DNA from: Streptomyces sp. NBC_00239
GTDB taxonomy: Bacteria > Actinomycetota > Actinomycetes > Streptomycetales > Streptomycetaceae
Reading direction: 5' to 3'
Assembly (NCBI RefSeq): GCF_036194065.1
Contig: NZ_CP108095.1
Span: 7,688,001 to 7,752,000, forward strand
DNA length: 64,000 bases
Made by a program: the position numbers and the translations under genes. This document shows positions 51,305-64,000 of the stretch, in pieces. The first letter of the stretch is position 1. The number at the start of each line of letters is the position of its first letter. The notes below the pieces were generated by a model that did not search any database, was not told where the DNA came from, and saw only the letters and a list, made by a program, of their open reading frames with translations.

Positions 51305-52615
51305 TCAGAACCAGTTGAGAGTGAGCGGGAAGGTGACGGCGGCCGACTTGCCCGCGGCGTCGGTGGCCGTGGCCGTGATCTGGACCGTCCCGGAACCCCA
51401 CGGCTTCCCGCTGATCCGGCCGGTCGCGGCGTCCATGGCCAGACCCCACGGCAGCCCGGTCGCGGTCCACCGCAGCGGAGCCGTACCGCCGGTGGCGGTC
51501 AGCTGGATCGTGCAGGACTGGTTGAACTTGCAGGTCTGCGCGCCCGGGTCGGCCACGACCGGCCCGCCGCCCGGCGGCGGTTCCTCCCCGCCGGTGCCGA
51601 ACACCTCGGTGATCGGCTGGGCGCTCGCCGCGTTGCCCGCGTGCCCCGTCCCGAACAGGTCCTCGAAGGTCCGCAGCAGGTTGAAGTGGTTGTACGCGCC
51701 GCTGTAGCGGCCCTGCTTGACGTGCGCGCCGGAGAAGACGGTGGCGATCTGGTTCGACCCCAGATAGTTGTCCTCGTCCCAAGTGAGCACCAGGAGACTG
51801 TTGTTGGCCTTGGCCCACTGCGCGTACGCGTCGAGGTTGTTCTTGACCCACGTGTCGCCGGTGCTCACCGGGCACGAGTGCATGTCGTTGCACTGGTTCG
51901 GGACGATGAACGACAGGTGCGGCAGCGCGGTGAAGTCGGTGCGCGGGAACTGCGTCCACGTCTTGCCGGTGTCGAGCGGCACGTTCTTGAAGGCGAACCA
52001 GGGATTGTGCTTCTGCGCGTACTGGCCGTTGGTGCAGGCCGTGGATCCCTGGCTCGGCAGGTCCTCGTTGTACGTGGCGAACGTCCGCCCCGCCGCGATG
52101 AGTTCCTGCCCGAGGTTGGGGGCCGTCATCGACTGCGGGGTGTAGCAGCCGTCGCCCGTGATGCCCTGGGTGCCGCCCGAGAAGAGGTTGAAGTAGTTGG
52201 GCTGGCTGGGGTGGGTCAGCGCCTTCATGCCGGTGAGGCTGGCGCCGGCGTTGGCCAGCTGGTTGACGTACGGGGCGTTGGCGCTGCCGATGATCTCGCC
52301 GTACTGCTTGTTCTCGAAGACGACCACCACGACGTGGTCGTAGGCGGGAAGGGCCGCGGCCGCGGCGGCGGACCGGTGCGCCGGGACGGCGTCGGCGGCC
52401 GCGGAACTGCCGGCCGGCACGGCCGCGACGGCCGCGACCAGGCCGAGCGCGCAGGCGATGCCGGTGACGGCGGACCGCCGCCTGCCGCCGTGCCGCGGGG
52501 TGTCGGGCGTGTCAGGGGTGCCAGGGGTGGCCGTGCTGTCCGGGGCGGGTGGTGTGTCGCGGGCGTCCGGTGGTGCGGCCGGGGCCGGGTGCCTGGTTCT
52601 GGTGGGCTTTCGCAT
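51305..52615 (-). CDS. Secreted phosphoesterase with Ig-like C-terminal domain
   Basis: 436 aa. Pro-rich cytoplasmic N-terminus, signal segment about 48-75 (TGIACALGLVAAVAAVPAGSSAAA), phosphoesterase (phospholipase C/acid phosphatase) domain about 90-335 with VVVVVFENKQYGEIIG and LLVLTWDEDN, then an He_PIG-type Ig domain (LTATGGTAPLRWTATGLPWGLAMD) about 360-436. Cleaves phosphomonoesters or phospholipid heads outside the cell. AGGAGG before ATG 52615. It starts 26 nt after the galactokinase-like gene and may be the last gene of the lipid operon. Confidence 0.88.
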   Translation of the reverse strand: MRKPTRTRHPAPAAPPDARDTPPAPDSTATPGTPDTPDTPRHGGRRRSAVTGIACALGLVAAVAAVPAGSSAAADAVPAHRSAAAAAALPAYDHVVVVVFENKQYGEIIGSANAPYVNQLANAGASLTGMKALTHPSQPNYFNLFSGGTQGITGDGCYTPQSMTAPNLGQELIAAGRTFATYNEDLPSQGSTACTNGQYAQKHNPWFAFKNVPLDTGKTWTQFPRTDFTALPHLSFIVPNQCNDMHSCPVSTGDTWVKNNLDAYAQWAKANNSLLVLTWDEDNYLGSNQIATVFSGAHVKQGRYSGAYNHFNLLRTFEDLFGTGHAGNAASAQPITEVFGTGGEEPPPGGGPVVADPGAQTCKFNQSCTIQLTATGGTAPLRWTATGLPWGLAMDAATGRISGKPWGSGTVQITATATDAAGKSAAVTFPLTLNWF

Positions 52616-52640: not shown

Positions 52641-53678
52641 TCAGTCCTCCCGCCGGGCCGCTCCGGCCACGGCGATGTTCACGAAGCGCGGCACGGGCCG
52701 GCCCAGGCCGCGGAACTCGTCCGCGACGGCCGCCCGTACCGCCGCCGGCCGGTCACCGGGCAGCAGCACCAGTACGCTGCGGCCCGCCCGGCGGCCCGGC
52801 GGCCACGCCCGGAGCGCTCCCGCCCGCCGGGCGCACTCCACGGCCCGCGCCAGAGCGGCCGCCCGCTCCTCCTCGGGCCCCCGAACGACCATGAGCACCA
52901 GGTGCGTGCCGTCGGCGGGCGGGTCGAAGGGCACGTGCCGCGGAGCCCGGCCCGGGGCGAGGCGCAGAGCCGTGCCCGGCCGGGCGAACAACACGGCGCT
53001 GCGCAGCGCGTCGTCGTCACCGGGAGCCGCCTCCCGGATCAGCCCGGCGAGCAACTCCCGTGCGGGCAGTGGCTCGTCGGCTCCGGTGTGTACGTCGGCC
53101 ACGGCGAGCGCGACCGCGCAGTCGAGCGGCTCCGCGAGGTCCAGCCCGGCGGTCTCGGTGAGGGTGCCCTGGACGTGCAGGTCCGTCCCGGAACGGCCGT
53201 ACCCGGCCCGGGCGAGGGCCCGCAGCAGGGCGTACGGGCGGGCCGCCCAGGCGGGAGTGTCCGGGTACGGGCCGGTCAGCGGCAGGTCACAGCTCTGCGC
53301 GGGATGACCGAGGGAACTCAGCCGCGCCAGGCCGTCCGCGCGCGGGGCCGCGGCCGCCGCGACCGGCCACCCGGCGGCGGCCACCAGCCCCGGCGAACCG
53401 AGGCGGAAGGCGTGCGGGGCACTCCACACCGCGGCCGGCGGCCGCCCGTGCGCCACCTCCAGCGCATGTGCCACCAGCCGGAACAACGGGTCCGCGGTGG
53501 CCCGTCGGGCCAGCGAACCGGGACCGGCGGGGAGGTCCGCCGGCTGCGGGTCACCGGCCGCCGGGGCCGGCGCGGGGCGGGCGGTCCGGGGGTCCCGGGG
53601 CCGGGGCTGCGGGGCACGGGCGGCCGGCGGCCCGGGCTGCGGGCCGCCGGTGGCCGCCGCGGGCCGGGTGACGCTCAT
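52641..53678 (-). CDS. Degenerate galactokinase-like GHMP protein
   Basis: 345 aa. After a Pro/Arg-rich N-terminus (1-55) the order follows galactokinase: VWSAPHAFRLGSPGLVAAAGWPVAAA in place of APGRVNLIGEHTDYNxG, then WAARPYALLRALARAGYGRSGTDLHVQG, then TETAGLDLAEPLDCAVALAVADV in place of PxGaGLSSSAALxVAxA. The Glu/His/Asp of motif 1 and the Gly/Ser phosphate loop of motif 2 are lost, so it should not phosphorylate sugars. The call is a structural inference. Its start overlaps the methyltransferase stop as ATGA. Confidence 0.55.
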   Translation of the reverse strand: MSVTRPAAATGGPQPGPPAARAPQPRPRDPRTARPAPAPAAGDPQPADLPAGPGSLARRATADPLFRLVAHALEVAHGRPPAAVWSAPHAFRLGSPGLVAAAGWPVAAAAAPRADGLARLSSLGHPAQSCDLPLTGPYPDTPAWAARPYALLRALARAGYGRSGTDLHVQGTLTETAGLDLAEPLDCAVALAVADVHTGADEPLPARELLAGLIREAAPGDDDALRSAVLFARPGTALRLAPGRAPRHVPFDPPADGTHLVLMVVRGPEEERAAALARAVECARRAGALRAWPPGRRAGRSVLVLLPGDRPAAVRAAVADEFRGLGRPVPRFVNIAVAGAARRED

Positions 53679-55525
53679 TGCGATTCCTTGCGGGCCAGCA
53701 GGCGGTACGCGTTTCCGCCGTCCGTACGGCGGGCCACGGCGCTGCGTACGGTGTCCAGGGCGCCGGCCGCCAGGAAGCAGGGCACGGCCGCCACCCGGAC
53801 CGCCTGACGGACCGCACGGCGGACCGGGCGGGCCGCGGCCGGGTCGGCCCACGGGCTGTGCGGGTCGGGGGCCAGCCGGTTGAGGGTGAGGGCGACGGCG
53901 CCCACGAAGTCGTTGTGCTGGTGGGCGGGTCCGTGCTCCTCGGCCAGGACGGTGAAACCGCGCTCGACGAGCGCCGCGCGGAGGTTGGCCGCCGGGATCA
54001 GGTGCTGGTGCTGCGGCTGGAACCACGGCAGCCAGTGCGGACCCAGCAGCCGCGCCATGCGCGACTGCGGATCGGGCAGTTCGATGAGCAGGTGCCCGCC
54101 GGCCAGCAGGACCTGCGCGGCCGCGTCGAGCTCCGCGAACGGGTCGCGGGTGTGCTCCAGGTAGTGGTACATGCTGACCGTGTCGTACCGGCCGGCGAGC
54201 TTCTCGGCCAGCTCCGGGAACTGGCCCTGGTAGCCGGTGGAGACCCAGCCCCGCCGTTCGGCCTCGTGGATCCCGTCGCCCATGTCGAGCCCGTCGAACC
54301 GGGTGTCCGGCCACACCTCGCGCGCGACGTCGCAGAAGTGCCCGTGGCCGGTGCCGACGTCGAGCCAGGAGGCGGGCCGGGCGTACGGGGCGATCATCGC
54401 GGCCCGCGCCCGGTAGGACGCGCCGAGCCGGGCGAATACCGTGCCGGCGCCCTCCCCGCCCCGGCCGTCGTAGAAGTCGCGGTAGTAGAAGTCCAGCCCC
54501 TCCACGGTCAGGCGGGGATTCTGGAAGACGTGCCCGCACGCCTGGCACTCCTCCAGGGTGAAGCGGCCCGGCTTGCCCTGGAGCAGGTCCGGCATCCGCA
54601 CCCGCACCGCCAGCCGGGGCGCATCGCACCACGGGCAGGTGGCGCGCCGCGGTTCGAGGAACCGGTCGGCGCCGCCCGCGAGTTCGGCTGCGTACGCGGC
54701 CCTGCGGCCCGCCTCCGCGGCCTCCTGCACGGACCCGGCCGCCCGTGCCGACCTGGCTTCCACGGCCGTCCGCAGCGCCGTCCGCACGGACCGCAGCGGC
54801 CGGGCCGCGCACGCGCCGGCCAGGTCCGCCGGCCGCAGCGGGCCGCCCGCGCCCAGCACGAGGGCGGGCTGGAGCCAGTACAGCCCGGCCGCTCCGACAC
54901 CCCACAGGCCGCCCTGTACGACAGCCGTCGCCAGCAGCGCGAGCCCGGCGAGCCCGGCGGCCGACAGCAGGCCCGGCGGCAGGCCCTGCGCGCGCAACTC
55001 GGCTGCCCGGCCGCCGGGACCGGGGGAGACGGCGCGGGCGCTGAGCCCGGGGGCGACCGCCAGATCCGTGGCGGCGCTCGCGTACTCCTTCAGGCGGCGG
55101 GTGAGCGCCAGCAGGTCCACCCGGTCCCGGGCGCGGTCCGGATCCACTCCGGCCCGCTCCAGGACGTCCTCGCCGACGAGCACCGCGTAACCCGCACCGC
55201 GCCCGGCGGCCAGCCGGTCCTGCCGGTACCCGGCCGGGTCCACCAGCCGCAGCAGCCCGAGGGCCTCCTCCGCCGCCAGGTCCGCCGGCAGCAGTTCCAG
55301 GACGTCCAGGCCCTCGCGGTCGGCGTGGGCGCGGGCGGCGGCGAGGACCGACCCGTCCGCCACGACGCCCCGGGCGGTGAGCAGCCGTCGGCGCGGCCCG
55401 GGCCCCCCGCTCGCGGACGGCTCCGCGGCGGGGGACAGCACCGCCAGCGCGTGCAGCCGGCGGCGCGCGCGTACCGTGCCCGCGCCGAGCGCCACGGCGA
55501 TCACTGCGGAAACCCATGCGCTCAT
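53675..55525 (-). CDS. SAM methyltransferase with hydrophobic N-terminal half and zinc motif
   Basis: 616 aa. Residues 1-290 are of unknown type with hydrophobic stretches at 5-18 and 186-226 and a DxLxLLPADLAAEEALGLLRLVD segment. Then a zinc ribbon CPWC (297-300) ... CQAC (327-330), and a class I methyltransferase with WLDVGTGHGHFCDVA (387-401), FDGLDMG, MYHYLEHTRDPFAELDAA and GGHLLIELPDPQSRMARLLGPHWLPWF. The last resembles C-methyltransferases of sugar or lipid modification. A membrane-facing enzyme that methylates the sugar or chain is a fair guess. Start and stop overlap both neighbours by ATGA. Confidence 0.82.
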   Translation of the reverse strand: MSAWVSAVIAVALGAGTVRARRRLHALAVLSPAAEPSASGGPGPRRRLLTARGVVADGSVLAAARAHADREGLDVLELLPADLAAEEALGLLRLVDPAGYRQDRLAAGRGAGYAVLVGEDVLERAGVDPDRARDRVDLLALTRRLKEYASAATDLAVAPGLSARAVSPGPGGRAAELRAQGLPPGLLSAAGLAGLALLATAVVQGGLWGVGAAGLYWLQPALVLGAGGPLRPADLAGACAARPLRSVRTALRTAVEARSARAAGSVQEAAEAGRRAAYAAELAGGADRFLEPRRATCPWCDAPRLAVRVRMPDLLQGKPGRFTLEECQACGHVFQNPRLTVEGLDFYYRDFYDGRGGEGAGTVFARLGASYRARAAMIAPYARPASWLDVGTGHGHFCDVAREVWPDTRFDGLDMGDGIHEAERRGWVSTGYQGQFPELAEKLAGRYDTVSMYHYLEHTRDPFAELDAAAQVLLAGGHLLIELPDPQSRMARLLGPHWLPWFQPQHQHLIPAANLRAALVERGFTVLAEEHGPAHQHNDFVGAVALTLNRLAPDPHSPWADPAAARPVRRAVRQAVRVAAVPCFLAAGALDTVRSAVARRTDGGNAYRLLARKESQ

Positions 55526-56691
55526 GAGAGCTTCTCCAACCTGTCGGCTGCGGTGGCGGCGCCGCCCGCGGCGGCGAAGGACGCCTGGATGCGGCGGGCC
55601 GCACGGCGGTGCGGGCCGGAGTCGTCCAGCACGGCCGTGAGCGCGTCGTGCAGGTCGCCGGGGCGGGCCCGGCCGAACCGCACACGGACCCCGGCGCCGG
55701 CCTCGGCGACCTGCTGCGCGACGATCGGCTGGTCGTCGCGGATCGGTGCCACGACCAGCGGCAGGCCGTGGGCGAGCGCCTCGCACACCGTGTTGTGGCC
55801 GCCGTGGCTGACGACCGCGTCGAGGTGCGGCAGCAGCCGCAGCTGCGGCACCGTCTCCCGGACCAGGGCGTACGGCGGCACCGGGCCCACCAGGTGCCGG
55901 GGCGCGGCCACGATCAACTGGACCCGGTCCGCGAGCTGTTCGCCGGCGGCCAGGACCGCGGCGTAGAACCGGGAGCCCGCCTCCTGGTTGAGCGTGCCGA
56001 GCGAGACCAGCACCCGGCGGCGCCCGGGATCGAGCTGCCGCCACGGGAAGTCCGCACCCGGCGGACGGGATCCGAACGCGGGCCCCACAAAGGCGTGGTG
56101 AGCGGGGAACGGCCCGCCGCCGATGAGTTCCGGCGTGGAGAAGACCAGTACCAGCCGGTCGGAGAACCGGGGGTCCCAGCCGGGCGGCGCCCCGCATTCG
56201 GCGAGCAGCCCGGCCAGCTGCTCCGCCACCCACGCGCCGACCTTGGGAAACCCGGCGAACGGGCGGGTGAACTCGGCCGAGGTGCTCGCCGACGTCACCC
56301 AGGGGATGCCGAACCGGCGGGCGACGACGGCGCCGGCCAGGGCCTGCTGGTCCGCGACCACCACGTCCGGGGCGAAGGCCGCGACGGCCCGCTCCACGCC
56401 GGGCACCATCGCCCGGGCCAGCGGCACGAGCGCCTCCGCCCACAGGAACCGGAGGGCGGCGACACCGCGCAGGTCCCGCCACCGCCCGTGCAGCGCGGCG
56501 TACCCGCCGGCGTCCGGGCCCGCGTCGTCGCCGGCGGAGTACAGCCGGGCGTGCGCGGGCAGCAGCCCGGACAGGACGCCGGCGGGACCGGTCCACGCCG
56601 TGTCGTGTCCGCGGGCGGCCAGCTCGGCGGCGACGGCGACCGTCGGATTGACGTGCCCGGCCAGCGGGGGGACGACGAAGAGCACCCTCAT
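55522..56691 (-). CDS. UGT-type glycosyltransferase (GT1 family)
   Basis: 389 aa GT-B enzyme. N-terminal acceptor domain MRVLFVVPPLAGHVNPTVAVAAELAARGHDTAW; C-terminal donor site VSLGTLNQEAGSRF and VVSHGGHNTVCEALAHGLPLVVAPIRDDQPIVAQQV, as in macrolide and rhamnolipid glycosyltransferases. Uses a nucleotide sugar to glycosylate a lipid or polyketide aglycone. No sugar-biosynthesis genes are in view, so a common UDP-sugar is likely. Overlaps the hydrolase stop and the methyltransferase start by 4 nt each. Confidence 0.92.
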   Translation of the reverse strand: MRVLFVVPPLAGHVNPTVAVAAELAARGHDTAWTGPAGVLSGLLPAHARLYSAGDDAGPDAGGYAALHGRWRDLRGVAALRFLWAEALVPLARAMVPGVERAVAAFAPDVVVADQQALAGAVVARRFGIPWVTSASTSAEFTRPFAGFPKVGAWVAEQLAGLLAECGAPPGWDPRFSDRLVLVFSTPELIGGGPFPAHHAFVGPAFGSRPPGADFPWRQLDPGRRRVLVSLGTLNQEAGSRFYAAVLAAGEQLADRVQLIVAAPRHLVGPVPPYALVRETVPQLRLLPHLDAVVSHGGHNTVCEALAHGLPLVVAPIRDDQPIVAQQVAEAGAGVRVRFGRARPGDLHDALTAVLDDSGPHRRAARRIQASFAAAGGAATAADRLEKLS

Positions 56692-57545
56692 GCTGTCAGC
56701 GCTCCCGTCCGGGTCCGCGCGGCCCGGCGGACGGCCGCGGCGTGCGCCAGTACGGCCTCGCGCAGCACCCCGTCCGTCTCCTTGAGGACGTCGTGGCCGA
56801 GGCCGGGCAGGATCCGCAGCGTGCAGCGCGGCGCGTGCCCGGCCAACTCCAAGGCCCCCGGGACCAGTTCGGAGTGCTCCCCGCAGACGACGAGGACCGG
56901 GCAGTCGAGCCCGGCGTAGTCGGCGGGCGTGAACGTGCGGCCGGCCGCGATGTCGTCGATGAGGGTGGTGTGGTTGAGGAGCGCGTCGGCGATGACCGTC
57001 AGCTTCGCCGCCTTGCGAAGGCGCAGGGAGGACAGTTCGGCGGGCACCAGGCTGTCCTCCAGGCTGAGCGCGGCGACCGAGAGGGTGTCGACCATGTTCG
57101 CCACCCAGGGGCCGCTGAGCGGCGGTTCGAGCAGGGTCAGGCCCGCCACGAGATCGGGGCGGGCGAGCGCGGCGTGCAGGGCGAGGGTGCCGCCGTAGCT
57201 GTTGCCGACCAGATGCACGGGCCGGCCGTCCAGCCCGAGGGCGCGCAGCACGGCGACCAGGTCCCGGACGGCGCTCCCGCTGTCGTACCCGGCCGGCGGA
57301 CGCTCGCTGAGACCGTGACCGCGCAGGTCGTACAGGACCACCTCGTGTCCCGCCCGGGCCAGCGGCACGCCCAACGGGCAGTAGAAACTGGAGAGGTTGT
57401 CGACGACGAGGCCGTGCAGGAAGACGACGGGGGTGTCGCGGCCCTCCGGCGGGCCGTCGGGCAGGGCGACGCCCGTGGCGGGCGCATCGGCCGCGGGCAG
57501 TCGCTGTACGTGGAACCTGAGCGCGTTGGCGAGGATCTCGGCCAT
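56688..57545 (-). CDS. Alpha/beta hydrolase, possible product-release enzyme
   Basis: 285 aa. VVFLHGLVVDNLSSFYCPLG (oxyanion), YDLRGHGLSERPPAGYD, nucleophile elbow LVGNSYGGTLALHAAL, acid in CPVLVVCGEHSEL, and His in LPGLGHDVLKETDG. Seven nt after the ACP stop and overlapping the glycosyltransferase start (ATGA). The context suggests a stand-alone thioesterase or acyl-transfer enzyme that releases the chain from the ACP, because no thioesterase domain is seen in the synthase. Confidence 0.88.
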   Translation of the reverse strand: MAEILANALRFHVQRLPAADAPATGVALPDGPPEGRDTPVVFLHGLVVDNLSSFYCPLGVPLARAGHEVVLYDLRGHGLSERPPAGYDSGSAVRDLVAVLRALGLDGRPVHLVGNSYGGTLALHAALARPDLVAGLTLLEPPLSGPWVANMVDTLSVAALSLEDSLVPAELSSLRLRKAAKLTVIADALLNHTTLIDDIAAGRTFTPADYAGLDCPVLVVCGEHSELVPGALELAGHAPRCTLRILPGLGHDVLKETDGVLREAVLAHAAAVRRAARTRTGALTA

Positions 57546-57552
57546 GGCGGGC

Positions 57553-57867
57553 TCAGGCCGCCGGCGCCCGGCGCACGGGCCGGGCGGTGAGGGAGGCCCG
57601 GGTGATCCGCGCGATGTGGTCGACCAGTTCGCCGACCGACATGGCCAGGATCGCCTCCATGTCCTTCTCCGCGAGGAAGCCCATGAGATCGACCCGCGAT
57701 CCGTAGCGCTCGTGCAACTGCTCGGCGAGTGCCACGAATTCGATGCTCTCCAGCGCCAGGTCCTCGTTGAACGTGGTCTTCATGGTGACCTCGTCGGCGA
57801 GGAGGAAGTCGTCGCCGACGATCCGGACGAGCATGCCGGTGATCTCGGCGAGGATGTCAGATGCCAT
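57553..57867 (-). CDS. Discrete acyl carrier protein
   Basis: 104 aa. Four-helix ACP pattern, with the phosphopantetheine serine in EDLALESIEFVALAEQLHERYG (Ser about 41), where most ACPs have DSL. Helix 2 and the acidic loop are intact. The synthase stop overlaps its ATG by 11 nt. It is the only ACP visible and is presumably charged by the phosphopantetheinyl transferase domain fused to that synthase. Confidence 0.92.
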   Translation of the reverse strand: MASDILAEITGMLVRIVGDDFLLADEVTMKTTFNEDLALESIEFVALAEQLHERYGSRVDLMGFLAEKDMEAILAMSVGELVDHIARITRASLTARPVRRAPAA

Positions 57868-60800
57868 GGCTGTTCTCCGTCGGGGTCGGGAGGCCTGCGG
57901 GGACGGCCTGCGGGGGTGCGGGCGGGTCGGCGACCGCGGCCCGGGGCGGGTCGGTGACCGTGAGCGGTGTGACTGATATGAGCGGTGTGACTGATGTGAG
58001 AGGTGTGGTCCAGGCGATCAGGTGGTCCTCGTACGTCGTCGTGCGGACGTGGTGCGTGCGGCCGACGGGGGAGTGGACCCGCAGGCCGCCGGCCGGGTCC
58101 TCGGACACCTGCCAGCGCACGAGCCGGCCGCCCAGTCCCGTGCCCTCGGCCTTCGCGGCGGCCTCCTTGGCGCACCACAGGGTGGTGACGGCCGCGGCCA
58201 GGCCGGTTCCGTCGCGGGCCGCGAGCCGTTCGGCGAGGCGGTGCTCGTCCGGGGTGAGGGCGATGCGGATCAGGGCTCCGGGGTCCTCGGCCACCGGCTC
58301 GACGTCGATGCCCACGGGCCCGTCGCCGTGCGCGAAGGCGACCGCGATCCGCTCCTTGTGCGCCAGGGACAGGTGCAGTCCCGCGGCACGGCCGCCGGGC
58401 ACGGGGCGGCCCGCCCCGTCGTGCCCGACGGTGACCTCGGCCGGGAAGACCGGGCCGGCGCCCCGCTCCCACAGCAGCTGCCGCACGGCGTCCTTGGCGG
58501 CGATCCGGCCCAGCAGCCAGGGCGCGCGGGCGCGCGGCGCGAGCCGCTCGTACGCGTCGCGTTCGGCGGCGCCGAGGTAGCGGCGCATGACCAGTTCCTG
58601 CGAGGCGGGGTCGGCCCAGCGGCGGGTGGCCGCGCACCAGCCGCCGGGCTGAGGCTCGCCGATCCCGGAGACCTCCGGGGTGAACTTCATCGGCCACACC
58701 CGCTCGTCGGCGGCGAACCGGCGGTACGTCCAGTCCTCCAGGCGGGCCCACACCGCGCCGTCCGGCGTGCACAGCTCCACGTCGCCGCGTACCGAGGTGG
58801 CGCGCACCTCGCGGATACGGGCCGTCGCGGACAGGAGGGTGCCCGGCGCGGGCGGGGGACCGTACAGGCGGATCCGTTCGAGGACGGCCGGGAACACCAA
58901 CCGGTCGGAATCCAGGCGCAGTTGCATCCAGTGGCCGAGGAGCTGCCCGGCGGCGTCGAGGAGGGCGCCCGGGGCGGGCAGGGCCCGGAGCACGCCGTGT
59001 ATCCCGTCCTCGGCGACGGCGGTCACCTCGTGGACACCGGCGAAGCGGGGGCCGTGGAACATCCAGCGGTCCCGGTACAGGGCCTCCGCGGAGACCGGTG
59101 CGGGGCGTTCGGCGGTGAGCGGGGCCGTGTCGGGGGCGGGAGGCGCGTCGTGGCCGGCGCCGAGGCGCACCGTCACCTGCGCGCAATCGCCGATGTCGAC
59201 CCGTACGCGGCCGTCGGCGGCCGGGCGGGTGGTGAACTCCACGTCGACGGCGGGCGCGACGGGAAGCCAGCGCAGGGCGCGCATGCCGTCGAAACCGGTG
59301 ACGAGGTGCCCCGGCGGCCGGGTCGCGAGGGCGGCTTCGGCAGCCAGCTCCAGCATGGTGGTCATGGGGACGACGGGAAAGCGGTCGGAGTCCTCCGGCC
59401 AGTCGTCGGGCTGGAGGTAGACGCAGTGGTCACGGACGGAGGGAAGGACGTCGAGGGAGAGCCGGCGGGTGTACGAGCGGGGGCGGGCGGGCGGCGGGCC
59501 CGATGCGCCTGCCCAGTGCCCGAGGGCGGGGGTCGGGCCCGCGGCGGTGGCTGCGCCGGTCCGGGCCATGGGTGGGGTGGGCCGAGGGGCGGCTGTCAGG
59601 GCCGCCGCGACGGCGCGGGCGGCTTCGTGGGTCTCGTCGAGGACGGCGTCCAGCTCGGACAGGAGGACGGGGCGACCGGAGGCGGCCGGGATGCCGGAGG
59701 CGGCCGTGCCGGCCGGGGCGGCGAGCGGACCGTGCTCCGGGAGCGTGTCGCGGGCGGGTAAGGGGTCGAGGCGCGTGAAGGGGGAAAGGTCGGCGTGGGA
59801 GCTGCCGTTCGGCAGGGGCCACTGGTCCCGGAGGGCCTGCGCGGCGCCGTTCAGGTGGACGAGGGGGGAGCCGAGGTCGAGGCGGACCGGGTGTCCGGTG
59901 CGCTTCGGGGCGGGCCGGGCGGTGAGCCGGTCCCAGCGCGGCTGCAGGCCCTCCGTCCACAGGGCGGCCGCCAGGTGGCGCAGGGCGTCCATGCCCGACA
60001 GGCGGGGGGACGAGGCCGCGGCGGAAAGGTGTTCCGCACCGCGCAGCGTGTCGTCCACGAAGCCGGTCAGGCTGCCCGGCCCCGCAGAGACGAAGGCCCG
60101 TACGCCTTCCGCGTGCAGCCGCAGCGTCAGGGCGTGGAAGTCGACCGGCTCCAGCAGGTGCCGGACCACCAGCTCCCGTATCGCGTCCGGTTCGGACGGA
60201 TACGGGGCGGCCGTGGTGGCCGACCAGACGGGGAGCGCGGCCGGCCGCAGCGGCAGGCGCCGGAAGGCGGCCCGCACCTGACCCAGGTACGGCGCCCACA
60301 TCGGTGTGTGGAAGCCGGACCGGAAGGGCAGCTCCTGGCCGGGAACGCCCTCCGCGGCCAACCGGCCCAGCACCGAGGAGATCTGCCGCTGCGGGCCGCA
60401 AACGACCGACTGGTGCGGGCAGTTGTCATGACTGACGGCCACGCCCTCCAGTCCGTGCAGGGCTGCGCCCGCCTGCTCCGCGCCGCAGCCGAGTGCCGCG
60501 TACACGAGGTCCGGCACCTCCAGCGAACCGGGGCGCCGCAGCGAGTCGAGGAAGGTGTCGACGGCGTCCTGCGGGTACATTCCGGCGGCCACCATGGCGG
60601 CCCACTCGCCGAGACTGTGTCCCGCGAACAGGTCCGGTTCGACGCCGAGTTCGGTCAGGACCCGGGCGAAGAAGCGGCCGGTGGCGAGGGCGTCGAGGGC
60701 CCGCTCGACGAGCTCGCCGCCGCCGGTGAGCGCGGGGGCGGCAAGGCCGAGGCGGGCGGCCACCTCGGTCAGGGCGGGCGCGAACTCCGGTTCCAGGCCC

Positions 60801-62770
60801 GGGAAGAGGAGCGCGAGCTTCCCGCCGGGTTCGGCAGCGTACGGCCCGAGGAGCGGCCGGGGCGTGAACCACACCCCGCCCCGGCCCCGCCAGGGGCGGG
60901 CGCGGGCGAGGACCTTCGCGGCGAGCGCCCGTCGCTCCGCGGTCGGATCGGCGATCGCCAGCCGGCACGGACCACCGTGCTCGGCCGCGGTGGACGCGGA
61001 GGCGGACGTGGCGATAGAGGCGGCGGACGTGGCGGTGGAGGCGGCGACGGTGTCCTGCGCGGACCCGTGGTGTGGCGTGGGCGCGGGTCCGTGATCAGGG
61101 GTGGGACCGTGACCGGGGGTGGACCCGTGGCCGGACGTGTTCCCGAACACGGGCTCGGGGTCCGTTGCGGCCAGGAGCCGGGCCAGCGCCTCGGGGGTCT
61201 CGGCCGTGAGGAGGAGTACGGATGCGGAGGCCGGGGCGGCGTCGGCGGGCCGGCGCGGGCGGACCGTGGTGCGCGCGGTGCCGCGCGGAGCGGAGCCCGA
61301 GACCGGCAGGGGCAGGAACCGGCGGGCCGGAAGCGGCGTCGCCGCACGGGCGCCGGGAGCCTCCTCCAGGATGACGTGGGCGTTGATGCCCCCGAACCCG
61401 AAGGCGTTCACCGCGGCCCGGCGCGGTGCCCGGCCCGGCTCCCAGGGCTCGGCCGCGTGGACCGGGCGCATCCGGGTCCGGGCCAGGCCCTCGTGCGGAT
61501 CGTCGAGGTGGAGGGTCGGCGGCAGCACCCCCTCGTGGACGGCGAGCGCTGCCTTGATCAGTCCGGCCATGCCGGAGGCCTGCATGGTGTGCCCGAGCAT
61601 CGACTTGACCGAGCCCAGCGCGACGGCCCCGGCAGCGGCACCCCGTTGCCCGAACACCCGCTCCAGGGTGGCGAGTTCGGCCTCGTCACCGACCGGCGTC
61701 CCGGTTCCGTGTGCCTCCAGGAGGCCGATCGACCCGGCGGCCTGCGGGTCGAGGCCCGCCGCCGCCCAGGCCCGTTCCAGCGCCTGCACCTGACCGTCCA
61801 CCAACGGGCTCATCAGGCTCGCCGCGCGGCCGTCGCCCGCGACACCGACCCCGCGTATCACCGCGTACACCCGGTCGCCGTCCCGCTGCGCGTCCGCGAG
61901 CCGCTTGAGCAGCACCACACCCGTCCCCTCGGACAGGAGCGTGCCGTCGGCCCGCCGGTCGAAGGGGCGGATGTGCTCGCTGGGGCTCAGCGCGCCCAAC
62001 TGGGTGAACACGCTCCACAGCGTGGCGATGTGGCAGTGGTGGACGGCCCCCGCCACGACCAGGTCGCAGCGGTCGGCGGCCAGCAGGCCGACCGCCTGGT
62101 CCACGGCCAGCAGCGACGACGCGCACGCCGCGTCCAGGGTGTAGGCGGGGCCGCGGAAATCGAGCCGGTTGGCGGTCCGGGCCGCGGTGAAGCTCGGCAC
62201 CAGACCGATGGACGCCTCCGGCTGCTCCGGGCCCAGGGCGCCCTGGAAGGCCTCCCTGATCGCGGCGATCCGGGCATCACCCAGATCGGGTGCCAGCTCG
62301 CGCAAGGTCGCACTCAACTGATGTGCCGTGCGCACCCGTTGGTCGAGGCGCGCGGTCGCCACTCCCATGAATCCGCCCCGGCCCAGCACCACGCCGATCC
62401 GGGACCGGTCGGCGGGCAGCCGGTCCTCGCCGCCCGCGTCGGCGATGGCCTCGGCGGTCGCGTGCAGGGCCAGCAACTGGTCCGGCTCGGCGCCGGACAC
62501 GGCGGCGGGCATGATGCCGAAGCGGGTCGGGTCGAAGGCGGCGAGGTCGTCGACGAAGCCGCCGCGCCGGCAGTAGAAGCGGTCGCTGCCGGGCGGACCG
62601 TCGGGGGCGTAGTACACCTTCGGATCCCAACGCCCGGGCGGCACCTCGGTGATGGCGTCGACACCGGCGAACAGGTTGTGCCGGTACGCGGCGAGGTCAC
62701 CGGCGCCCGGGAACACGGCGCCCATGCCGACGATCGCGGCATCGGTGGGACGAGGACGGGGCTCAGCCAT
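57857..62770 (-). CDS. KS-AT-DH-phosphopantetheinyl transferase megasynthase
   Basis: 1637 aa. KS about 10-470 with Cys216 (TLDAACASS), His354 (EAHGTGTPVGD) and His394 (SMLGHTMQASG). A His/Ser/Ala/Thr-rich linker 490-600. AT about 650-950 with Ser719 (GHSLGEW) and His821 (FRSGFHTPMW). DH about 1098-1355 with His1115 (VRDHCVYLQ) and Asp1272 (LLDAAGQLLGHW). Sfp-type PPTase about 1400-1600 with VGIDVEPV (Asp1489, Glu1491) and WCAKEAAAK (Glu1536, Lys1540). No KR, ACP or TE inside. The KS opening (AIVGMGAVFPGAGDLAAYRHNL) is PUFA/hglE-like. A DH-PPTase C-terminus recalls enediyne synthases, but the order lacks ACP-KR. Codon 1004 is TTA (59759-59761). Confidence 0.93.
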   Translation of the reverse strand: MAEPRPRPTDAAIVGMGAVFPGAGDLAAYRHNLFAGVDAITEVPPGRWDPKVYYAPDGPPGSDRFYCRRGGFVDDLAAFDPTRFGIMPAAVSGAEPDQLLALHATAEAIADAGGEDRLPADRSRIGVVLGRGGFMGVATARLDQRVRTAHQLSATLRELAPDLGDARIAAIREAFQGALGPEQPEASIGLVPSFTAARTANRLDFRGPAYTLDAACASSLLAVDQAVGLLAADRCDLVVAGAVHHCHIATLWSVFTQLGALSPSEHIRPFDRRADGTLLSEGTGVVLLKRLADAQRDGDRVYAVIRGVGVAGDGRAASLMSPLVDGQVQALERAWAAAGLDPQAAGSIGLLEAHGTGTPVGDEAELATLERVFGQRGAAAGAVALGSVKSMLGHTMQASGMAGLIKAALAVHEGVLPPTLHLDDPHEGLARTRMRPVHAAEPWEPGRAPRRAAVNAFGFGGINAHVILEEAPGARAATPLPARRFLPLPVSGSAPRGTARTTVRPRRPADAAPASASVLLLTAETPEALARLLAATDPEPVFGNTSGHGSTPGHGPTPDHGPAPTPHHGSAQDTVAASTATSAASIATSASASTAAEHGGPCRLAIADPTAERRALAAKVLARARPWRGRGGVWFTPRPLLGPYAAEPGGKLALLFPGLEPEFAPALTEVAARLGLAAPALTGGGELVERALDALATGRFFARVLTELGVEPDLFAGHSLGEWAAMVAAGMYPQDAVDTFLDSLRRPGSLEVPDLVYAALGCGAEQAGAALHGLEGVAVSHDNCPHQSVVCGPQRQISSVLGRLAAEGVPGQELPFRSGFHTPMWAPYLGQVRAAFRRLPLRPAALPVWSATTAAPYPSEPDAIRELVVRHLLEPVDFHALTLRLHAEGVRAFVSAGPGSLTGFVDDTLRGAEHLSAAASSPRLSGMDALRHLAAALWTEGLQPRWDRLTARPAPKRTGHPVRLDLGSPLVHLNGAAQALRDQWPLPNGSSHADLSPFTRLDPLPARDTLPEHGPLAAPAGTAASGIPAASGRPVLLSELDAVLDETHEAARAVAAALTAAPRPTPPMARTGAATAAGPTPALGHWAGASGPPPARPRSYTRRLSLDVLPSVRDHCVYLQPDDWPEDSDRFPVVPMTTMLELAAEAALATRPPGHLVTGFDGMRALRWLPVAPAVDVEFTTRPAADGRVRVDIGDCAQVTVRLGAGHDAPPAPDTAPLTAERPAPVSAEALYRDRWMFHGPRFAGVHEVTAVAEDGIHGVLRALPAPGALLDAAGQLLGHWMQLRLDSDRLVFPAVLERIRLYGPPPAPGTLLSATARIREVRATSVRGDVELCTPDGAVWARLEDWTYRRFAADERVWPMKFTPEVSGIGEPQPGGWCAATRRWADPASQELVMRRYLGAAERDAYERLAPRARAPWLLGRIAAKDAVRQLLWERGAGPVFPAEVTVGHDGAGRPVPGGRAAGLHLSLAHKERIAVAFAHGDGPVGIDVEPVAEDPGALIRIALTPDEHRLAERLAARDGTGLAAAVTTLWCAKEAAAKAEGTGLGGRLVRWQVSEDPAGGLRVHSPVGRTHHVRTTTYEDHLIAWTTPLTSVTPLISVTPLTVTDPPRAAVADPPAPPQAVPAGLPTPTENSHGI

Positions 62771-64000
62771 GGTGGACCCCCTGCCCGCCGGCCCCGTCCG
62801 CGCCGTCCGCCATGAGGACGACCTGCGGATCCGTCCCGTGGAGGAGTTCCGTCAGGAAGGCCTCCGTGCCCGCGTCCGGCTCGATGAGCGCGATGCCGCG
62901 CCGCGCGTACGCGCGCTCCAGCTCCGGGGTGACCATGCCGCCGGCGTCCGAGGCCCACGGACCCCAGTCGACGGCGAGGACACGGCCCGGGGAGGCCGCG
63001 GACCAGGTGTGGGCGAGGGTGTCCAGAGCGTCGTTGGCGGCCGCGTAGTCGCTCTGGCCGCGGTTGCCGTACACGCCGGCGACGCTGCCGAAGAGGACCA
63101 GGAAGGCGGGGCCGGCCGGGCCGCCCCCGCCCGCCGTGCCCGTACCCGTACCCGCGCCCCCGCTCTCGTCGGCGGCCGCGACCGAGGCCGCGAGGTTGCG
63201 GGCGCCGGCCACCTTCGTGGCGAAGACCTCGGCGAAGGACTCCGGGTCCTTGTCGCGCAGGAGGGCGTCCCGGATCAGGCCCGCGCCGTGCACGATGCCG
63301 TCCAGCCGGCCGTGCCGGGCCCGGACGTCGGCCACGACGGCGCGCACGGCGGCCTCGTCGGTGACGTCGGCGCAGTGGTAGCGCACCGACGCCGCCGTGC
63401 CGGCGAGCGCGCCCAGGGTGTCCCGTACCTCCCGGGCGGCCAGGACCCGGGAGGCGGCCGCCTCGATCTCCGCGGGCGTGCGCAGCCCTCCGGAGATCAG
63501 CGCGGCGCGCAGGGCGACCCGGTCGTGTGCCGAGGCGAGGGCGGGGTCCTCGGCAGCCTCGGGCGGGGGCGTACGGCCGATCAGCTCGACGTGGCAGCCC
63601 GTGGCGCGGGCCAAGGCGAGGGCGGCGCGGGCGGTGATGCCGCGGGCCCCGCCGGTGATCACCACCACGCCGTCGCGGTCCAGGCGGAGCCGCGGGGGCC
63701 CGGCGTCCGTGAGGGGAGCGGGCACGGTGCGCAGGACGGTCCGGGTGCCGTCGGTGTAGCCGACCGCCACCGGCTCGTCCGGGGCGCACAGTTCGGCGAG
63801 CAGGTGGGCGGCGATGCGCTCCGGGCGGTCCTTGGGATCGACGTCCACGGCCCGTACGAGGGCCCCCGGGCATTCGAGCGCGGCACTACGGGCGAACCCG
63901 CGCAGCCCGAGCCCCGGAACCGGATCCGGCGCGCCCGGACCGTGCCCGAACGCCCCGCCCGCCGCCGTGCCGACCACCAGCCACCGCACCCCGCCGACCA
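62763..64000 (-). CDS. Partial polyketide/PUFA-like synthase, C-terminal ketoreductase
   Basis: The last 412 codons of a larger gene entering from the right edge. SDR-type KR: nucleotide loop VVVITGGARGITA, VRYHCADVTDEAAVRAVV, DGIVHGAGLIRDALLRDKDPESFAEVF, and catalytic FGSVAGVYGNRGQSDYAAANDAL (Ser, Tyr, Asn all present), with the structural subdomain (LGLRGFARSAALECPG) before it. This KR form is typical of PfaA-like synthases. Stop overlaps the KS-AT-DH-PPTase start by 8 nt. GTG 63989 is an internal codon, not a start. The upstream KS/AT/ACP part is unseen. Confidence 0.9.
   Translation of the reverse strand, partial: VGGVRWLVVGTAAGGAFGHGPGAPDPVPGLGLRGFARSAALECPGALVRAVDVDPKDRPERIAAHLLAELCAPDEPVAVGYTDGTRTVLRTVPAPLTDAGPPRLRLDRDGVVVITGGARGITARAALALARATGCHVELIGRTPPPEAAEDPALASAHDRVALRAALISGGLRTPAEIEAAASRVLAAREVRDTLGALAGTAASVRYHCADVTDEAAVRAVVADVRARHGRLDGIVHGAGLIRDALLRDKDPESFAEVFATKVAGARNLAASVAAADESGGAGTGTGTAGGGGPAGPAFLVLFGSVAGVYGNRGQSDYAAANDALDTLAHTWSAASPGRVLAVDWGPWASDAGGMVTPELERAYARRGIALIEPDAGTEAFLTELLHGTDPQVVLMADGADGAGGQGVHHG

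Follow-up and report, generated by a model that had tools for sequence, protein, structure and literature searches.

Two described families of bacterial synthases offer the nearest comparison for the operon reported here. In Azotobacter, where the ars system provides cyst lipids, ArsA makes a C22-26 acyl chain (PMC3098273; C23-25 according to PMC4824345), ArsD is named as the phosphopantetheinyl transferase (PPTase), and the ars genes are activated by the LysR protein ArpR (PMC4824345); Beijerinckia is tabulated among the synthases of this Type P (PMC3098273). Type M has Renibacterium, Frankia, Actinosynnema and S. avermitilis as members (Shulse and Allen 2011, PMC3098273), and for Renibacterium salmoninarum a fused PfaDA and a fused PfaBC with PPTase have been reported, the product being uncharacterised (PMC13291983). 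Here we analyse 64,000 nucleotides of Streptomyces sp. NBC_00239 (the window, positions 7688001-7752000 of contig C1; genome of 9.3 Mb), in which seven minus-strand genes encode two synthases (A and B), an acyl carrier protein (ACP), an alpha/beta hydrolase (ABH), a glycosyltransferase (GT), a methyltransferase (MT) and a GHMP-like protein (G). Our reading, to which we assign a probability of roughly 0.6, is that one iterative type I secondary-lipid synthase, divided between two proteins, is encoded here together with tailoring enzymes, and that the operon makes a glycosylated, methylated long-chain lipid. It draws on domain content, retained active sites, conserved gene order, one natural fusion of A with B, kinship with Type P and promoter-like elements. 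A glycosylated and methylated fatty or polyketide chain had already been proposed in the first-pass annotation, and it stands as the natural guess from the gene set.

Operon layout and domain content

The first gene of the operon, A, is cut by the right edge of the window; the rightward extension suggested in the first-pass annotation completed it from the flanking genome, where positions are called window-equivalent, and its start was placed at window-equivalent 69848, at a GTG preceded by AGGAG. Domain searches identified enoyl reductase (ER), ketosynthase (KS), acyltransferase (AT), ACP, ketoreductase (KR), dehydratase (DH) and PPTase domains. Residue counts refer to 41 alignment rows of A and 49 of B, after removal of A rows shorter than about 1700 aa, of rows of the other genes below 60% of query length and of four A rows with B or a read-through as best match, and after addition of some short Type P and KS-less rows.

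62763-69848 window-equivalent (L012:1763-8848), minus strand: synthase A, whole, 2361 aa, ER (two NMO domains)-KS-AT-ACP-KR
62763..64000, minus strand: C-terminal part of synthase A (end of the KR), stop at 62763, running off the window
57857..62770, minus strand: synthase B, KS-AT-DH-PPTase, 1637 aa
61334..62737, minus strand: KS of B; Cys216, His354 and His394 in 46/46 rows with the domain, 3 further rows being without it
59891..60823, minus strand: AT of B; Ser719 and His821 in 47/47 rows with the domain
58676..59491, minus strand: DH (PS-DH) of B; His1115 and Asp1272 in 49/49 rows
58001..58531, minus strand: PPTase of B; Asp1489 in 44/49 rows, Lys1535 and Glu1536 in 47/49
57553..57867, minus strand: free ACP; Ser41 in 51/51 rows, Pfam score 19.8 for a cut-off of 20.8
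56688..57545, minus strand: ABH; Ser116 in 50/52 rows (Cys in 2), His251 in 52/52
55522..56691, minus strand: GT1-type glycosyltransferase of the macrolide/YjiC/oleandomycin-GT kind, by profile and domain search
53675..55525, minus strand: S-adenosylmethionine-dependent MT with a CxxC..CxxC element and, at its N-terminus, an additional domain of about 275 aa
52641..53678, minus strand: G, a galactokinase homologue without kinase motifs

Junction overlaps amount to 8 nt at A/B, 11 nt at B/ACP and 4 nt each at ABH/GT, GT/MT and MT/G, and the gene coordinates leave a gap of 7 nt at ACP/ABH, exactly the values first annotated for the seven genes; their description as one overlapping operon is thus borne out. 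The comparison covered 30 orthologue loci (28 of Streptomyces, 2 of Embleya) and 2 more from a further search, 32 in all. The overlaps exceed chance because those at A/B and ABH/GT recur across these loci. L024 and L060 allowed no measurement at A/B; of the 25 loci that did, 20 have an overlap of 8 nt, two of 4 nt and one of 11 nt, and the remaining two have a gap. The ABH/GT overlap is 4 nt in 28 of 28. Start codons were chosen by script as those closest to the homologous position. The order of all seven genes is the same in 24/32 loci; of the remaining eight, L040 has no ACP open reading frame (ORF) call though tblastn detects the ACP, and the others are truncated at contig ends. Ratios of dN/dS (Nei-Gojobori, four pairs per gene) lie between 0.21 and 0.36 across all seven genes, and the closest match of B in protein searches comes from S. 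xanthophaeus (80%).

Synthase A runs from tandem NMO-type barrels, which make up the ER, through KS, AT and one ACP to the KR; barrel 2 has GGH in all 37 covering rows and barrel 1 GGR in 26 of 29. The domain order annotated for B was recovered, and the KR indeed sits on a gene other than B, namely A. The ACP had been placed on a gene of its own: that gene exists, but A carries an ACP as well, besides ER, KS and AT. The residues examined in both KS, both AT, ACP, KR and DH domains are invariant wherever the domain occurs, and no frameshift of the sort that would betray a dead cluster was seen in either synthase, A and B both being open frames with the checked active-site residues present. B contains no chain length factor (CLF), KS-B holding its Cys-His-His in every row that has a KS. 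Where AT-A reads FPGQGSQ, AT-B has an FPGLEPE-like loop with Glu660 in 47/47 rows with the domain, hinting at an unusual role for this acyltransferase.

Among solved structures, the closest relatives of GT are the glycosyl transferase 10zg (3e-25), YjiC (1.5e-23) and oleandomycin GT (3.7e-22). No sugar-biosynthesis gene was found among the seven. The N-terminal domain of MT (residues 1-275) contains hydrophobic stretches, has no Pfam or NCBIfam match and is present only in the operon's own clade and in L083, a locus outside Streptomyces; eleven homologues from the sister clade described below consist of the C-terminal part alone. G, first annotated as a degenerate GHMP protein, was rightly called so and can be sharpened to a galactokinase relative, matching galactokinases as a profile (6tep, E 3.6e-18). 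At the places of the GHMP motifs GEHTDYN, GLSSSAA and GGGFGG, the aligned residues are not conserved, either in the alignment to 6tep or in that of the orthologues. Single members match Pfam weakly (GHMP_kinases_N in 8/24, best 0.0012), and the window's own G gave no GHMP_kinases_N match. At a dN/dS of 0.33-0.36 (Nei-Gojobori, four pairs), this galactokinase relative without kinase motifs is under purifying selection. G is present in all 26 orthologue loci with a complete MT, and a normal galactokinase signature occurs elsewhere in the genome. Yeast Gal3 is a member of the galactokinase family without kinase activity, and G resembles such inactive paralogues (GAL3 chains were reached at E 0.3 only), whereas G is bacterial and lies in a lipid operon. 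As a guess, this dead galactokinase might serve as a subunit that binds sugar or as an adaptor.

Kinship with described synthases

After two sister-clade plasmids, the best match of A in the plasmid collection is a type I polyketide synthase (PKS) on Beijerinckia indica plasmid pBIND02, with 45% identity over 1647 aligned positions comprising the tandem NMO, KS and AT. The C-terminal DH-PPTase half of B is collinear with a Beijerinckia DH-PPTase protein of 629 aa (30%, 542 aligned positions, E 1e-48), by analogy with which ArsD may carry a DH. Two further proteins at the Beijerinckia locus are annotated with a KAS-III C-terminal domain and would be type III PKSs. TIGR02813 (PfaA) is the top NCBIfam model for both synthases at 859 and 428 bits, both below the cut-off of 1010, which the Beijerinckia PKS passes.

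A KS tree of 63 rows places KS-A in a clade of its own (100/99), nested in a group (94/88) shared with Type P and a single long-branched alphaproteobacterial row; KS-A, PfaA-like and Type P rows share one clade (96/98) that also includes the long-branched PKSE row. KS-B falls into a clade apart (100/99), and its recent duplication from KS-A was rejected by the approximately unbiased (AU) test (p 0.003). The first-pass annotation had named KS clustering within a well-studied family of known product as grounds for refuting it; in part this is the case, as KS-A does join Type P, a family of known acyl chain, though it does so as a clade of its own with no product on record.

The locus combines KS, ACP and KR with a KS phylogeny of the PfaA type, as in secondary lipid synthases. 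It also has the Type P set of ER-KS-AT-ACP-KR plus DH-PPTase and a KS grouping with Beijerinckia, A and the DH-PPTase half being collinear with the Beijerinckia indica pair, the sequences used here for Type P. It differs from ars in that KS-AT is fused ahead of DH-PPTase and that no type III PKS partner was found in the operon, which has instead a free ACP, ABH, GT, MT and the dead galactokinase.

The fused PfaDA and fused PfaBC-PPTase of Type M, as worded in the available text of PMC13291983, correspond to the two-protein layout of A and B, a match by description only. The synthase layout is therefore already in print as uncharacterised (PMC13291983), the consulted parts of which make no mention of the tailoring cassette. 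No named Type M member appeared among the best 120 matches of the protein searches. The heterocyst glycolipid synthase Hgl (Type F) is likewise an iterative long-chain synthase with a glycolipid product; it has HglC as KS-CLF-AT without DH (PMC3098273), whereas here a DH is present and a CLF is not. S. coelicolor SCO0126-0127, reported for eicosapentaenoic acid (PMC5932044), was set aside for its different layout, which would be the KS-CLF-DH2-AT of the Type L cluster in PMC3098273.

Distribution, variant loci and regulation

The synthase gene set is widespread in actinobacteria. Among 199 genomes of Streptomyces, 13 (the source genome included) hold close relatives of the DH-PPTase stretch at 71-100% identity, 44 hold more distant ones (42-50%; 47 matches), 2 give only weak matches and 140 none; relatives above 220 bits occur in 57/199. 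In a phylum-wide sample of 396 genomes nine match, four of them Streptomyces (own included) and five from four other families. A sister clade was sampled through 14 of the 47 distant matches and two named, near-identical plasmids. In all 16 loci B is followed by ACP, ABH and GT, with an MT homologue (C-terminal part) in 11 and G in none; the next gene in the five others is an ABC exporter in L057 and L062 (by Pfam) and in L058 (by its similar length and position); it is an FkbM methyltransferase in L054 and nothing recognisable in L053. MT is thus variable among sister loci.

The five loci outside Streptomyces (L080-L084) all have A, B, ACP and ABH, with GT in four, G-like proteins in two (L081 and L083, at 45 and 50 bits) and MT in L083. 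In L080, whose B shares 98% identity with a protein of Micromonospora rifamycinica, a sulfotransferase takes the place of GT after the hydrolase, which would be a second way of decorating a hydroxyl. In L081, A and B form a single ORF of 3217 aa with one KS, its NMO part being found by tblastn and not reported by Pfam; the joint is no frameshift artefact of A, as the alignment of A reaches residue 2386 of 2394. L083 has a B of 1014 aa, AT-DH-PPTase without KS. The single open frame of 3719 aa at L060:32-11191, in which a sequencing slip or a recent change has shifted the frame of A over its final few dozen residues, was not counted as a fusion, since the read-through uses the shifted frame at the end of A. 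Wax ester synthase/diacylglycerol acyltransferase (WS/DGAT) genes adjoin two of the related clusters (L083:2581-3981 and L084:4165-7079).

The operon has these neighbours:

70401-71294 window-equivalent: LysR gene, divergent from A, by domain search
51305..52615, minus strand: phosphoesterase with Ig-like C-terminal domain, 25 nt downstream of G

Between lysR and A, GTTGACA occurs in 17 of 19 intergenic regions (against a mean of 0.2 in mononucleotide shuffles). The inverted repeat ATRCCG-N3-CGGCAT is present in 12 of 19 in its strict and 16 of 19 in its loose form (shuffles 0 and 0.04); these regions are related sequences and the counts are not independent. A promoter and terminator scan of the gap returned nothing by the sigma-70 rule, GTTGACA being visible by comparison alone. 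The divergent LysR gene probably controls the operon, which would be a further likeness to Azotobacter and its LysR regulator. The phosphoesterase, present at 20/32 orthologue loci (some end before the gene) and absent from the two Embleya loci, is a neighbour and not part of the core. Ig-like (He_PIG) ends were noted on both flanking genes (window 51305-52615 and L012:10558-11634), which cross-match at 60-84% identity in several orthologue loci, and upstream of the operon, past lysR and one more gene, lies a gene for an NACHT-type NTPase of 1146 aa (L012:11615-15055).

Proposed pathway and rival products

In the proposed pathway, A would carry out condensation and reduction, and B would supply the dehydratase, activate the ACPs by its own PPTase and add a second KS and the odd AT. 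Acting together, they would build a long acyl chain, about C20-26 by analogy with ars, that keeps at least one hydroxyl. This acyl chain would then be handed to the free ACP and released by ABH, which might instead join two chains by lactonisation; GT would very probably attach a sugar, likely from a housekeeping UDP-sugar, and MT would methylate the sugar or the chain.

A number of observations weigh against this reading. In the tree, the nearest row to KS-A is the long-branched one (86/39); the AU test merely fails to reject KS-A with Type P (p 0.43; tree support 94/88) and rejects KS-A with the enediyne KS only marginally (p 0.044), the groups having been named after the tree was seen. The role of KS-B is put in doubt by L081 and L083, two relatives that have no second KS. 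An ER and a DH acting in every cycle would leave no hydroxyl for GT, so that selective reduction has to be assumed, and ABH might do no more than edit, as a thioesterase. Seven of the 19 loci lack the strict LysR-type repeat, both Embleya loci among them. Finally, no product is named for the cluster in the portions seen of the literature searched, including PMC12358690, PMC6274091, PMC6232825 and PMC5168871; in the same material the cassette, the dead galactokinase, the sulfotransferase swap and the single-chain and KS-less forms were not found. The vesicle-envelope lipid of Frankia was set aside as a lead only, PMC5745019 ascribing the envelope to hopanoids.

A more specific product would be a macrodilactone of the fattiviracin, cycloviracin or glucolipsin kind, two long hydroxy acids, glucosylated, joined by the hydrolase and O-methylated on their sugars. 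Fattiviracins (C22-28) and cycloviracins (up to C33) are actinobacterial long trihydroxy acids with glucose, the latter with 2-methoxylated sugars, and their producers are Streptomyces and Kibdelosporangium (PMC4365757). The operon could supply every activity needed for the compounds as described there, and no gene-cluster paper on fattiviracin turned up among the entries listed in the literature searched; the match is one of inventory, however, and the same gene set would serve many glycolipids, so we consider this product rather unlikely. It is nevertheless tempting to speculate, doubtful as the outcome is, that the operon gives a genetic handle on such macrodilactones or a sister class, with a hydroxyl-leaving ArsA/ArsD-like synthase, a cyclodimerising hydrolase, an iterative GT, an O-methyltransferase, the kinase-dead galactokinase as sugar-sensing or GT-adaptor subunit, and a swap to sulfation.

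A Pfa-type synthase of polyunsaturated fatty acids would agree with PfaA as best NCBIfam model and with the PfaD-like ER, but the PfaA cut-off is missed, and the locus has one ACP domain in place of tandem ACPs, one dehydratase in place of two DH/isomerases (Pfa layout in PMC3098273) and no KS-CLF, the Cys-His-His of KS-B being intact. GT and MT after the synthase fit no better, and with none of these Type A/B features found, membership was rejected on domain content and such a product is quite improbable. Nor do we lend much belief to the chain serving as alkyl tail of a phenolic lipid, passed as in Azotobacter to a type III PKS encoded at another place in the genome, the phenol being then glycosylated. 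Type P kinship would suit it, as would five chalcone-synthase-family matches above cut-off in the genome, at least one of which may be another thiolase-fold enzyme; these are, however, a long way from 7.75 Mb, being placed on C4 or at 0.45-1.41 Mb of C1, and a nearer match at 5.58 Mb is below cut-off. In the relatives, the ORFs between the core genes leave no space for a type III PKS, the rest of those genomes not having been searched.

The DH-PPTase fusion had at first suggested enediyne synthases, and an enediyne/polyene-type iterative PKS split in two would yield a conjugated polyene instead of a long saturated or hydroxy chain. PKSE enzymes have the layout KS-AT-ACP-KR-DH-PPTase in one protein and share the KS, AT, KR and DH kinds with the present synthase. 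Against the one named enediyne PKS compared, from Streptomyces sp. NBC_00209, B aligns only in KS (37%) and AT (31%), and A at 36% over KS-AT and again in KR, whereas the DH-PPTase half, collinear with the Type P protein, gives no meaningful BLAST match (24 bits, E 0.16). Neither the single-protein form nor DH-PPTase kinship was thus found for the locus; A has an ER, none of which was found in that PKS, and no enediyne genes were seen among the four flanking genes scanned (phosphoesterase, LysR, Ig-domain protein and NACHT protein). Taken with the AU rejection of a joint clade of KS-A and PKSE, BLAST and the KS tree leave distant KS/AT/KR homology as the only kinship, and an enediyne-type origin is hardly credible. 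Separately, a KS at G000:C3:281211-282068 (L076) groups with an enediyne PKS KS (100/100), and the source strain may therefore hold a separate enediyne-type PKS.

Our reading of the operon as a split secondary-lipid synthase offers a concrete gene-to-product test for macrodilactone glycolipids, which are without a gene cluster in the parts of the literature searched. Should the more speculative macrodilactone idea hold, a core that swaps glycosylation for sulfation across actinobacteria would make a family of differently headed long-chain lipids. With the natural one-chain and KS-less forms, it would become possible to test how two-protein lipid synthases divide their labour, and through the kinship with Type P an orphan class of PKS proteins that is very common in actinobacteria is linked to synthases whose chemistry has been established by experiment.

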